Source: Phycisphaeraceae bacterium (GTDB lineage: Bacteria; Planctomycetota; Phycisphaerae; Phycisphaerales; UBA1924). From it: DNA of 64,000 nt. The stretch is taken from contig JAHBWW010000002.1 in assembly GCA_019636795.1 (NCBI GenBank), forward strand, positions 1 through 64,000, written 5' to 3'. The translations under genes and the position numbers were made by a program. This document shows positions 6,026 through 55,020 of the stretch, in pieces (position 1 is the stretch's first letter; the number at the start of each line of letters is the position of its first letter). The notes under the pieces were generated by a model that saw nothing but the letters and a program-made list of their open reading frames with translations, was not told where the DNA came from and ran no database searches.

Positions 6026-8122
6026 ATGACTCAGGCATCGGCATCAAAGACACACGATCACGATCACAAGCACGATCACAAGCACGATCACAAGCACGAT
6101 CACAAGCACGACGAAGGCGTGGCGTGCTGTTCGCACCACGAGATACAGAGCGATCGTTATCTGATTGTGTATCTGGTCGGCGGTGTGCTGGCTTTGGTGA
6201 GTTGGGTGGCCAATGCGTTCAATGTCACCGATCCGGCGGTTGCGAAGCTGCCGGCGCTGGTTGGCGCGCTGCTGCTGGGCAGTACGCTTTTCCGGGCCGC
6301 GTTCAAGGAAATTCTGAGGGCACGATTCAGTTCGTCGTCGCTGGCAGCCCTTGCGATCATTGCGTCAATTGTGATCGAGGAGTTCGTGACGGCAGCTTTC
6401 CTGGCGTTCATTCTTCTGGTTGCGGATCAAGTGCTGCGTCGCACGGCGTTTGGTGCACAGAGGGCCATCGAGCAGCTCGTGCGCCTCACTCCGGATACTG
6501 CTCGTCTGATCGAAGATGGGCAAGAGCGCATGGTTTCGATCTCCGAGATCAAAGTCGGCCAGATGGTGCGGGTGCGGCCTGGCGAGAACCTGCCGGTCGA
6601 CGGCCGGGTGCGCAGCGGGCGTTCGACGGTGAATCAGGCGTCGCTCACTGGTGAGGCGATGCCGGTCGAAGTGCAGCCTGGTGCCGATGTTTACGCGGGC
6701 ACGACGAATCTGACGGGCGGCATCGATGTCGAAGTGCTTCAGGTCGGGGCGGAAACGACGATCGGCAAAGTTTCGACACTGATCCGCGAAGCCGAGTCGA
6801 TGAAGAGTCCGCGACAGTTGCTTATCGAGCAGGTGGCACGGTTCTTTGTCCCGATTGCGGTGTCGGTGGCGGCGCTCGTGTACTTCATTACGGCAACGAA
6901 CCCAGCGACGAAGGAAATTGCAGGGCTTACGGCTGTGACGGTGCTAGTCGTCACATGCCCGACAGCACTTTTGCTGTCGAGCCCGAGCGCGATGGTCGCG
7001 GCGTTCGCGTCGGCGGCGCGACTGGGGATCATGGTTAAACGACCGGATTACATCGAGGCGGCGGCTTCGATCGATGCGATCGTGCTCGACAAGACCGGCA
7101 CGATTACCACGGGCAAGTTCGGCGTTTCGCGTCTTGCTCCGGTGCCCGGCGTGGAGGGAGCGGCACTGCTCGAAGCGGCTGCCAATGGCGAGCAGCACTC
7201 GAACCACCCGCTTGCGCAGTCGATCCTTGCGACAGCGCAGGCTGCACGCATCACGGTTGATGGTTCGAGTGAGTATGAGGAGTTTCATGGACGTGGTGTG
7301 CGGGCACGGACGACGCTGGGCGATTTGCATGCTGGGCGTGCGTCGTGGATCATGGAGGTCAATCCGTCGGCCAAGGCTGCGATTGAGCAGGTGCAGGCTC
7401 GCATTGAAGGAATGTCGGGCGTGCATGTGATGCGAGACGGGCAGTATCTCGGCGCGGTGGGGCTCGAGGACAAGGTGAGGCCGAACGCACGGAATGTGCT
7501 TGAGAGGCTTCGCGAACTGGGGCTGCGGACGATTTCGATCTTTACGGGTGATCGGCTTGATGTGGCCAAGCGTGTTGGCATCGCGGTTGGTGCCGATTCG
7601 ATCGAGGCCGAGTGCCTGCCTGAGGAGAAGCACGAGCTCATTCGCCAGATGGTCGGCCAGGGCTACCGCGTGATGATGGTGGGCGACGGGATCAACGACG
7701 GCCCGGCATTGGCCGAGGCGGACGTGGGTGTTGCGATGGGGCTTTCGGGGTCGGACATCGCGGCCAACAGTGCTGGTATCGCGTTGATGACTGACGAACT
7801 CAATCGCCTGCCGTTCCTGATTGAGCTTGCTCGCCGTACCAAGTCGATCATCGCGCAGAACATCGCGGTTTCGATTTTGATGGCGTTGATCGGGCTGATC
7901 CTGGCTGCGACTGGGCAGTTTGCGCGTGCGGGCGAACTGGGGGTGGGTTTTGCTGCGTTGTATCACTTCCTGCCTGACGTGTTTGTGATCGGTAACAGTT
8001 TCAGGCTTTTCCGATTTGGCGAGGAGTTCCTTGAGGCTGAGCAGCTCAATAAGGCCAATGCTGAGCGAGTCCGCATCGTGCGTGACGCGAGCGTGCGCAA
8101 TCTGACGGCTGCAGCGACTTGA
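6026..8122 (+). CDS. P1B-type heavy-metal-translocating ATPase with His-rich N-terminus
   Basis: 698 aa from ATG 6026 (GGGAG upstream). A cytoplasmic tail of repeated HDHK units (residues 10-30) ends in 'CCSHH' and replaces the usual HMA domain; metal binding there is inferred. Next come paired helices, the actuator 'TGEAMP', the transmembrane metal site 'CPT' near residue 310, the phosphorylation motif DKTGT near 356, the P1B 'HPLA' locus near 395 and the hinge GDGINDGPAL near 555. The family exports or imports Cu, Zn, Cd or Co ions across the inner membrane using ATP. CPC and SPC are the common metal-site forms, so CPT makes the ion hard to predict. No adjacent metalloregulator is seen. Confidence 0.9.
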   Translation: MTQASASKTHDHDHKHDHKHDHKHDHKHDEGVACCSHHEIQSDRYLIVYLVGGVLALVSWVANAFNVTDPAVAKLPALVGALLLGSTLFRAAFKEILRARFSSSSLAALAIIASIVIEEFVTAAFLAFILLVADQVLRRTAFGAQRAIEQLVRLTPDTARLIEDGQERMVSISEIKVGQMVRVRPGENLPVDGRVRSGRSTVNQASLTGEAMPVEVQPGADVYAGTTNLTGGIDVEVLQVGAETTIGKVSTLIREAESMKSPRQLLIEQVARFFVPIAVSVAALVYFITATNPATKEIAGLTAVTVLVVTCPTALLLSSPSAMVAAFASAARLGIMVKRPDYIEAAASIDAIVLDKTGTITTGKFGVSRLAPVPGVEGAALLEAAANGEQHSNHPLAQSILATAQAARITVDGSSEYEEFHGRGVRARTTLGDLHAGRASWIMEVNPSAKAAIEQVQARIEGMSGVHVMRDGQYLGAVGLEDKVRPNARNVLERLRELGLRTISIFTGDRLDVAKRVGIAVGADSIEAECLPEEKHELIRQMVGQGYRVMMVGDGINDGPALAEADVGVAMGLSGSDIAANSAGIALMTDELNRLPFLIELARRTKSIIAQNIAVSILMALIGLILAATGQFARAGELGVGFAALYHFLPDVFVIGNSFRLFRFGEEFLEAEQLNKANAERVRIVRDASVRNLTAAAT
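6059..6106 (+). repeat. Four exact 12-bp tandem repeats encoding HDHK units
   Basis: CACGATCACAAG is repeated four times without mismatch at 6059-6106, with partial units on both sides. It encodes the histidine-rich tail of the metal ATPase. Exact DNA identity between units suggests recent slippage expansion, so copy number may vary between strains. Confidence 0.97.
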
Positions 8123-22041: not shown

Positions 22042-22494
22042 GAGAACTCCGGGAGGGCTGGCGCAAGTCGCGCGGTTCGCGGCACCTCAGGATTAGAGCA
22101 GATCCGGGAAGCGAATGCAAACGTAACTGCTTCATTTGAACCGAACACAATGCGTATATACCACAAAGGCAGCGTGCGGCACTGGTGGGTTGATCGCGAC
22201 AGAGGGTGAAAATGGGCACAAGGGCTCGTCCCGGATCATGCCTGAGCAAATTCGTGGCGGTGAATCGCGTTGGCATTGGATCGCTGACCTTGGAGTGCAA
22301 AAGACTTCTCTAAGGCTTTGGAAGAACAGGCTGATCCAAAGCCGAGCCGAGAAGGCGGAGCATCATGGAAGGGAAAAGTCAGCGCAACTCAAACGCACGG
22401 AACCGCACAGTACGCGAGTTTCGACAGTTAGGATTGTGAGTTGCATGGGATTCGCAACCGTATTCGAGCGACCGCGAAGTGGTGCGACGAGACT
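22042..22494. other. Intergenic region between GH16 gene and island left end
   Basis: No gene is supported in these 453 bases. The part nearest GH16 must hold its promoter and contains the operator-like site at 22122. The remainder is chromosomal DNA that, before integration, lay just beyond the 3' end of tRNA-Phe. Confidence 0.6.
22122..22133 (-). promoter_or_regulatory. Degenerate LacI-type operator upstream of GH16
   Basis: The minus strand reads GAAGCAGTTACG, differing by one half-site base from GAAACAGTTAC. It lies about 80 bp upstream of the GH16 start and would place the laminarinase in the same regulon. Confidence 0.5.
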
Positions 22495-22518
22495 TAATGG
22501 GCAGAGCCGGACTTGAAC
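22495..22518 (-). repeat. Left attachment site (24-bp tRNA-Phe 3' fragment)
   Basis: The 24 bases starting TAATGGGCAGAGCCGG are identical to 54945-54968. They comprise the 3' strand of the acceptor stem, the T arm 3' half and four flanking bases of tRNA-Phe. The rest of a tRNA is absent here, so this is a fragment left by site-specific integration. Confidence 0.92.
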
Positions 22519-22739
22519 ATCCCCAAGAAAACCCGGCAATTCCGCGCGTTTCCGATTCAGGCGGCATCAAATCCGGCAACATTCCCCCCAATACCGCTCA
22601 AACTCCAAATATTGCAACGCCAACGATGATTAAAGATGATGACTTGAGGCGGATCATCGCAGCGTGGGCAACGCTTCCAGAGGCTGTGCGGGCTGGGATG
22701 GTGGCTATGGTGGCGAGTGTGGGGAGAGGTGGAGCCTGA
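22519..22739 (+). other. Detached integrase C-terminal tail at the island left end
   Basis: The frame entering from the att site (MGRAGLE..) stays open to a TGA at 22739. It ends in 'DDDLRRIIAAWATLPEAVRAGMVAMVASVGRGGA', an amphipathic helical tail resembling, from memory, the C-termini of planctomycete tyrosine integrases. The integrase at 53699 reads through the other att copy in the same frame (LMGRAGLE). Joining the ends in a circle would therefore append this tail in place of the tRNA-encoded ending. It has no promoter or start of its own. An alternative is a remnant of an older integrase. Confidence 0.6.
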
Positions 22740-53698: not shown

Positions 53699-55009
53699 AT
53701 GGCAAGCATCGGACGCGAAGGCACGAAGGGCGAACTCAAACGCATCATCTTCCGCGACGCGAGCGGCAAGCAGAAAACCCTGAGGCTCGGCCCATGCTCC
53801 GAGAAGGCGGCCCAAAGCGCACTGGCCGGATTCGAGCGGGTGCTCGAAGCCCATCGCATCGGATCGACGATCCACCCCGATGGCGTGCGATGGCTCGAAG
53901 CAATCGACGATCGGCTGCATGAACGAGTCGCAAGGCTGGGGCTGTGCGAACCCCGCAAGGCGGCCGAAGCGTTGACGCTGGGCGGGATGCTGACGAAGTT
54001 CTTTGCGGGGGTGGACGTGAAGCCCGCGACGCTGGTCCGCATGAAACAGGCAGAGGCCGCTCTGCTGGAGCACTTCGGCGAAGATCGTGAACTCTCGAAG
54101 ATTGCCGGAGCCGATGCCGAGAAATGGCGTGCGGGCTTGAAGGCTGCTGAGTATGCCGATGCGACGATCAGCCGAACCGTTCTGTACGCGCGGCAGTTCT
54201 GGCGGTGGGGAATCAAGCGCGAACTTGTGCAACGCAACCCATTCGACGACGTGAAAGCGGGGTCGCAAGTCAACGCGAAGCGTTCTGTCTTCATCAGTCA
54301 GGAAGTCATCCAGAAGATAATCGACGCAGCCCCCGATGCCGAGTGGCGGCTGCTGATTGCACTTTCCAGATTCGGCGGCTTGCGGGTTCCGAGTGAAGCT
54401 CTGGCCCTCACGTGGAACGACGTGGACTGGTCACACAATCGGCTGACGGTGCGATCATCGAAGACTGAGCATCACGAAGGGCGGGCAACGCGGCATGTTC
54501 CAATCTTCCCCGAGATTCGAGAGCACTTGCAGGCGGTGTACGACGCGGCCCCCGAGGGATCGGTCTACGTCATCGGGCGGTATCGGGTGGGGTCCAACCT
54601 GAATCCGCACTTCCGACGGATCATCACGAGAGCGGGTGTCACCCCATGGCCCCGGACGTGGCACAATCTGCGGGCGAGCCGACAAACAGAACTTGCAGCG
54701 ACATTCCCCTTGCACACTGTCTGCGCGTGGATCGGCAACACGAAGGCGATTGCGGCGGGGCACTACCTGCAAGTCACGGATGCGGATTGGACACGGGCAA
54801 CAGGCGGGATCGAGGCGGCATCAAATCCGGCAACACACACGCCCCCAAGCGCGCGCACCGACACACACGTCGAAGCGGAAAACCCTGAAAATCCTGCGGT
54901 TTTGGTAGTGGGTGGTATCGTGTGTGACATACCTAACAACTACCTAATGGGCAGAGCCGGACTTGAACCGGCGACACCCGCATTTTCAGTGCGGTGCTCT
55001 ACCAACTGA
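53699..55009 (+). CDS. Tyrosine recombinase/integrase, reading into the tRNA
   Basis: 436 aa as it stands. Residues 85-175 are an SAM-like core-binding domain. The catalytic set is visible: Arg in 'SRFGGLRVPSE' near 228, Lys in 'VRSSKTEHHEG' near 257, HxxR in 'TWHNLRAS' near 321, and Tyr in 'AAGHYLQVT' near 357, with His/Trp 'HTVCAWIG' before it. The last 20 residues (MGRAGLEPATPAFSVRCSTN) come from the att site and tRNA-Phe read in antisense. In a circular form the frame would instead continue into the tail at 22519-22739. It inserts and, with a Xis-like partner, removes the island. Confidence 0.93.
   Translation: MASIGREGTKGELKRIIFRDASGKQKTLRLGPCSEKAAQSALAGFERVLEAHRIGSTIHPDGVRWLEAIDDRLHERVARLGLCEPRKAAEALTLGGMLTKFFAGVDVKPATLVRMKQAEAALLEHFGEDRELSKIAGADAEKWRAGLKAAEYADATISRTVLYARQFWRWGIKRELVQRNPFDDVKAGSQVNAKRSVFISQEVIQKIIDAAPDAEWRLLIALSRFGGLRVPSEALALTWNDVDWSHNRLTVRSSKTEHHEGRATRHVPIFPEIREHLQAVYDAAPEGSVYVIGRYRVGSNLNPHFRRIITRAGVTPWPRTWHNLRASRQTELAATFPLHTVCAWIGNTKAIAAGHYLQVTDADWTRATGGIEAASNPATHTPPSARTDTHVEAENPENPAVLVVGGIVCDIPNNYLMGRAGLEPATPAFSVRCSTN
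54945..54968 (-). repeat. Right attachment site (24 bp, tRNA-Phe 3' end)
   Basis: Identical over 24 bases to 22495-22518. It covers the 3' part of the tRNA plus the next four bases, the classic target of tyrosine integrases. Confidence 0.93.
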
Positions 55010-55020
55010 GCTATCTGCCC
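54948..55020 (-). tRNA. tRNA-Phe (anticodon GAA)
   Basis: 73 nt that fold into a complete cloverleaf: acceptor GGGCAGA/TCTGCCC with discriminator A, D arm GCTC..GAGC, anticodon arm CCGCA/TGCGG with loop CTGAAAA giving anticodon GAA, variable loop GTGTC and T arm GCCGG-TTCAAGT-CCGGC. CCA is not encoded. The island integrated at its 3' end and left it intact at this junction. Confidence 0.98.

Follow-up and report, generated by a model that had tools for sequence, protein, structure and literature searches.

An attachment site within the integrase gene of a planctomycete defence island: integration is predicted to part the enzyme from a conserved two-helix tail

In phages and genomic islands, the separation of integration from excision is usually credited to a separate directionality factor, and the attP of phage lambda is located outside the int coding sequence. 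Other arrangements have been described. In the Myxococcus phage Mx8, attP is part of the int coding sequence, and the new 3′ end that int acquires on integration is reported to modify specificity; a similar principle is found in Mx9 (reviewed in PMC6070905). Overlaps of attP and int are also allowed for by Islander, where Mx8 and SSV are named (PMC4383910). The 'suicidal' archaeal integrases of the SSV type carry attP in the integrase gene, which is split by integration, and self-disrupting recombinases were termed exclusively archaeal in a review (PMC8371274). In BPs and its relatives, attP is placed inside the repressor gene and an ssrA-like tag is removed on integration (PMC4557955). In the open-licence literature we found no description of the planctomycete family presented here, of its hairpin module or of arm sites in a coding linker. 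The attP-in-int principle itself is known from Mx8, a precedent that the initial annotation did not name; the family in Planctomycetota appears to be undescribed, as do its detachable hairpin and the putative in-gene arm sites.

The stretch of DNA analysed in this study (the window) comprises 64,000 nucleotides of a Phycisphaeraceae bacterium (GenBank assembly GCA_019636795.1, contig JAHBWW010000002.1, positions 1 to 64,000). It contains a 32-kb defence island in a tRNA-Phe gene, bounded by two copies of the 24-nt att repeat TAATGGGCAGAGCCGGACTTGAAC, and parts of int are found at both ends of the island:

22495 to 22518, unstranded: left copy of the att core (attL), exact 24-nt repeat
22518 to 22739, plus strand: detached int 3′ end (73 codons and TGA), the predicted tail of the circle-form integrase; the int frame continues across the core
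22883 to 53681, plus strand: element cargo, comprising AbiEii, TmtA-like, GajA and GajB (Gabija), a DRT4/6-like reverse transcriptase and an HTH antitoxin-like gene
53699 to 55009, plus strand: int, encoding a tyrosine recombinase of 436 aa when integrated; ORF with PF00589 (E=8.4e-9), its last codons being tRNA-Phe sequence
54764 to 54766, plus strand: codon for Y356, the catalytic tyrosine; all of the catalytic core is encoded upstream of attP
54945 to 54968, unstranded: right copy of the att core (attR), exact 24-nt repeat, overlapping the 3′ ends of tRNA-Phe and int
54948 to 55020, minus strand: tRNA-Phe (gaa), the insertion target, regenerated at attR (ARAGORN)

The initial annotation had placed attP inside int, and this is borne out to the base by the exact repeat and by an int ORF which ends in the tRNA. 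The ORF and the ARAGORN prediction also confirm the coordinates of a frame that runs through the att repeat and has its stop codon within tRNA-Phe. For the left end, a frame of 73 codons up to a TGA had been read correctly in position, frame and tail sequence: the codons span 22518-22736, the TGA occupies 22737-22739 and the final residues are ...DDDLRRIIAAWATLPEAVRAGMVAMVASVGRGGA. Joining the ends in silico yields the one continuous gene that had been proposed, a single open frame of 496 aa. The anatomy is right for an integrase which would be longer in the circle and loses its tail upon insertion (496 aa in the predicted circle form versus 436 aa).

As in Mx8, attP of the planctomycete family is located in the coding sequence of int, whose 3′ end is exchanged on integration. 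Even the order within the Mx8 Int sequence is the same as here, namely a catalytic domain, a linker with a TGLEP peptide and a C-terminal tail. However, the Mx8 tail, read by eye, is without the DPELAAVVAAWPDLP hairpin motif and looks unrelated to the planctomycete tail. Around the Mx8 core, no paired arm repeats above the shuffled level were detected. The planctomycete layout differs from Mx8 also in belonging to islands and phages of one family that extends across the phylum. In integrases of the SSV type the catalytic domain is parted from the N-terminal part, whereas here both stay together and only the C-terminal module is lost. With BPs the element shares the placing of attP in a coding sequence and the loss of a C-terminal extension upon integration, but there the split gene is a repressor and the extension an ssrA-like tag, whereas here attP lies in int and not in a repressor.

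The integrase has the features of a lambda Int-type tyrosine recombinase, that is PF00589 with R, K, R and Y and, in the structural model, an N-terminal domain of three strands plus a helix. Pfam reports PF00589 alone, PF16795 being absent, and the catalytic domain is unsevered; R229, K255, R325 and Y356 are invariant in the 39 sequences compared. In the AlphaFold2 model of the integrated form, strands 3-7, 13-19 and 25-32 and helix 35-54 build the N-terminus as in an arm-binding domain, the protein is folded to residue 368, and residues 370-436 have a pLDDT below 50 and are predicted to be disordered. The best Foldseek match of this model is full-length lambda Int (1z1b). Lambda Int and Tn1549 Int have the same predicted domain order, with an N-terminal domain of the arm-binding type, a core-binding domain and a catalytic domain.

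For the analysis of relatives, 101 related genomes were searched with the joined protein, and int matches and tail matches were taken separately. By means of a tail profile, homologues of the tail were detected in 69 of the 101 relatives and in 61 of 294 evenly drawn genomes of Planctomycetota. The named loci belong nearly all to this phylum (Phycisphaerales, Isosphaeraceae, Paludisphaera, Aeoliella and others). On shared contigs and within 40 kb, by hand count, 25 tails are located upstream of int and on its strand, a single one (G057:C54) downstream, and none on the opposite strand. A set of 34 int/tail pairs, from which G034 with a fragmentary int and G057:C54 stand apart, was reduced by two loci without an att match (L106, L146) and one with a broken int (G010) to 31 analysable pairs, which represent fewer independent lineages since several of the elements at tmRNA are near-copies. 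In 30 of these 31 pairs the frame, once joined, stays open through the tail, where one third is expected per pair; in the remaining pair (G006) it is broken by a frameshift that lies between the core and the hairpin. A frame-breaking crossover, which according to the initial annotation would have spoken against its claim, was looked for, and the shared core was found to keep the frame. In every pair a conserved piece of the tail lies beyond the crossover. The targets comprise tRNA-Phe, Val, Lys, Ile, Gly, Leu, Glu and His as well as tmRNA. In the G057:C54 locus (L066), int and tail are contiguous in different frames, as in a decayed or frame-shifted unsplit copy; together with the frameshift of G006 this means that the long form has been lost in some copies. 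Judged from these sequence comparisons, the attP-in-int layout of the window is a family trait and not chance.

Among 80 chromosomal and two viral loci chosen by the tail, no complete int contiguous with a tail was found. Viral contigs chosen by the integrase contained homologues in which the tail is continuous with the enzyme, as had been asked for by the initial annotation: tail and integrase share one ORF in six different phage contigs (L200, L202, L212, L214, L218 and L224), the tails of L214 and L224 having been missed by the profile and identified by eye. These integrases have 479-562 aa, the first ATG of each frame being taken as the start, and each of the genes has a matching repeat pair at the expected places. 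Sequences resembling a tRNA T-loop are located between the repeats in L202, L214, L218 and L224, and a portal-like gene adjoins the integrase of L218. As the six records are linear or have ends that are unknown, we term them phage contigs and not complete free genomes. Two phage contigs of nearly equal size (35.7 kb) gave no sign of circular permutation. The contigs which carry a tRNA beside the integrase (L197, L208, L213) have the short form. The 23-row tail alignment was too diverse to serve for a scan of the collection; a tail motif scan delivered two viral records with the tail only (L101, L102), and L100, obtained in a viral contig scan with the window tail alone, was rejected as an unrelated chance match.

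On both sides of the core, the window contains a direct repeat that had escaped the initial annotation:

22559 to 22581, unstranded: P′-side putative arm-type repeat AGGCGGCATCAAATCCGGCAACA, located 40 nt past the core; its reading frame differs from that of the P-side copy
54813 to 54835, unstranded: P-side putative arm-type repeat AGGCGGCATCAAATCCGGCAACA, identical to the other arm over 23 nt; located in the coding part of int, 109 nt ahead of the core

The two copies do not share a reading frame, so that their similarity is one of DNA and not of protein. Such a repeat on both sides of the core is present in all 25 elements examined, at 94-138 nt before the core and 31-73 nt (mostly 40-47) after it. 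The repeats are element-specific and mostly doublets of a 6-8-nt unit with a spacing of 12 bp (e.g. GGCAACAAATCCGGCAACA or GCGGCGCAAAATGCGGCGCA). Within elements the match score has a mean of 20.2 versus 12.1 with permuted partners, and 0 of 10000 permutations reached 20.2. We infer that these repeats are putative arm sites of the integrase. Because they flank the core inside the gene, the int gene seems to contain the entire attP (arm-core-arm) in the codons of its disordered linker.

The tail itself is a conserved two-helix hairpin (DPELAAVVAAWPDLPPAIRAGIVAMV), located in the window as follows:

22635 to 22727, plus strand: conserved two-helix hairpin of the tail, DDDLRRIIAAWATLPEAVRAGMVAMVASV region, predicted from AlphaFold2 helices and alignment A2

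AlphaFold2 modelled the 99-residue tail frame with low confidence up to about residue 64, followed by helices 66-76 and 81-96 in a block with a pLDDT of 96-97. The entropy at the three codon positions of the tail is 0.79/0.53/1.36, and the median dN/dS is 0.28, a value biased by the selection of the tails with a protein profile. Upstream of the hairpin, at least 60 codons are open in the tail frame in 86 of 113 cases, compared to 22 and 35 in the other frames. The divergence of the tail is correlated with that of int (Mantel r=0.60, 0/5000; r=0.50 without near-copies), to which shared host ancestry could add. Taken from these sequence data, the tails evolve as protein, and the hairpin is under constraint. 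The tail profile found no relative in PDB, single tails gave no matches in PHROGs and NCBIfam, no recurring Pfam family was seen among the tails, and no match in these four databases points to a mechanism for the hairpin.

We consider it probable that the observed anatomy, open frame, conservation and intact long genes of phage contigs are explained as a whole by an in-gene attP, a long and a short enzyme and a module which tunes the enzyme to its substrate. According to this model, attP would be written, as arm site, core and arm site, in the linker that joins the catalytic domain to the C-terminal two-helix module, and the free circle or phage DNA would encode the module-bearing long integrase. 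On recombination with the tRNA gene, int would then be cut in the linker and the module stranded as an orphan frame at attL, so that the resident element would make a short integrase whose last few residues are tRNA-encoded, and excision would restore the long gene. The two-helix module may favour or permit integration, its loss leaving an excision-type or restrained enzyme. Tuning to the substrate is the most likely role of the module because the long enzyme would meet attP and attB, and the short one attL and attR. Two integrase proteins in vivo and a switch of direction are what we infer; that loss of the tail switches the direction of recombination is plausible from the sequences. The constraint on the tail sequence and the predicted folded hairpin would be compatible with the hypothesis, put forward in the initial annotation, of a built-in switch of activity or stability. 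The most far-reaching reading, to which we give slightly less than an even chance, is that of a phylum-wide family with attP and its arms in linker code, in which recombination removes and restores a conserved two-helix directionality module and the state of the product is recorded in the integrase C-terminus. Recombination in this element edits the recombinase gene, and an inserted copy can yield the short enzyme only, which opens a direct test whether direction is set by a protein tail. A further consequence is that family integrases read from chromosomes are the truncated form, and that the far end of an island, here one which carries several defence systems, is easily marked by the orphan tail frame.

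The main rival explanation, which we regard as unlikely but deserving attention, is a tolerated side effect: the overlap of attP and int would keep site and enzyme on little DNA, and the tail would have a general role, such as in stability or assembly, that is dispensable in the integrated state, with no switch of direction. A catalytic domain that is complete without the tail fits this explanation, and the use of the same DNA for arms and linker suggests compaction. However, a module which is found past the crossover throughout the phylum would be an odd site for a generally needed domain. It is quite improbable that the tail is instead a degradation signal on the free-form enzyme, by analogy to the repressor of mycobacteriophage BPs, although the logic of a tail removed by integration is the same there (PMC4557955). 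What is conserved is an internal hairpin, and the final residues differ among relatives (GGA, AGR, PGE, PAR, WAG), which makes a degradation tag less likely; in addition, the tail ends are unlike YALAA and YAMAA, the tag ends which ARAGORN predicts for the host tmRNAs. That the tail is an independent small gene at the left end of the element, adjacent by chance gene order, we hold to be very improbable: it does form a separate short frame in the integrated state, and the core in the window supplies an ATG (MGRAGLE), but the relatives have no common start codon, their frames reading MGRAGLE, VPPEGLE, WSRGESNP, RRTRTFD and others, and 30 of 31 pairs have the tail in the int frame, while in six phage contigs it is fused to int. 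A chance open frame across the tRNA repeat in G+C-rich DNA, where long chance ORFs are frequent in the window, is refuted by the fused int-tail homologues and has frame openness, conservation and recurrence against it as well.

A second element of like build is present in the same genome at a tmRNA site (G000:C2, about 553.8-588.6 kb; L077, L078), with the tail near 553.8 kb, int at 587.4 kb and about 33 kb between them. Three chromosomal relics (L080, L081, L085) were observed in which the 3′ part of an integrase runs in frame into a tail, in L080 as the C-terminal integrase part; tandem insertion at one target would give the same picture. Directly before the orphan tail, a near-complete tRNA-like sequence was observed in L110, L114, L117, L120, L132, L145, L155, L161, L165 and L178, and such sequences suggest a crossover nearer to the anticodon in some members.

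Concerning the surroundings, the HTH antitoxin-like gene adjoins int, and the cargo region of the window (22883-53681) also encodes a DUF2130 protein, an AIPR protein and a sigma-70-region protein with a weak match to MzaA. To the left of attL, a frame at about 22200-22380 resembles an integrase N-terminus by eye (QKTSLRLWKNRLIQSRAEKAE), possibly from an older element; in BLAST, an integrase remnant in this place found no significant support. Finally, a 12-nt tandem repeat of the type CACAAGCACGAT is located at 6053-6112 of the window.
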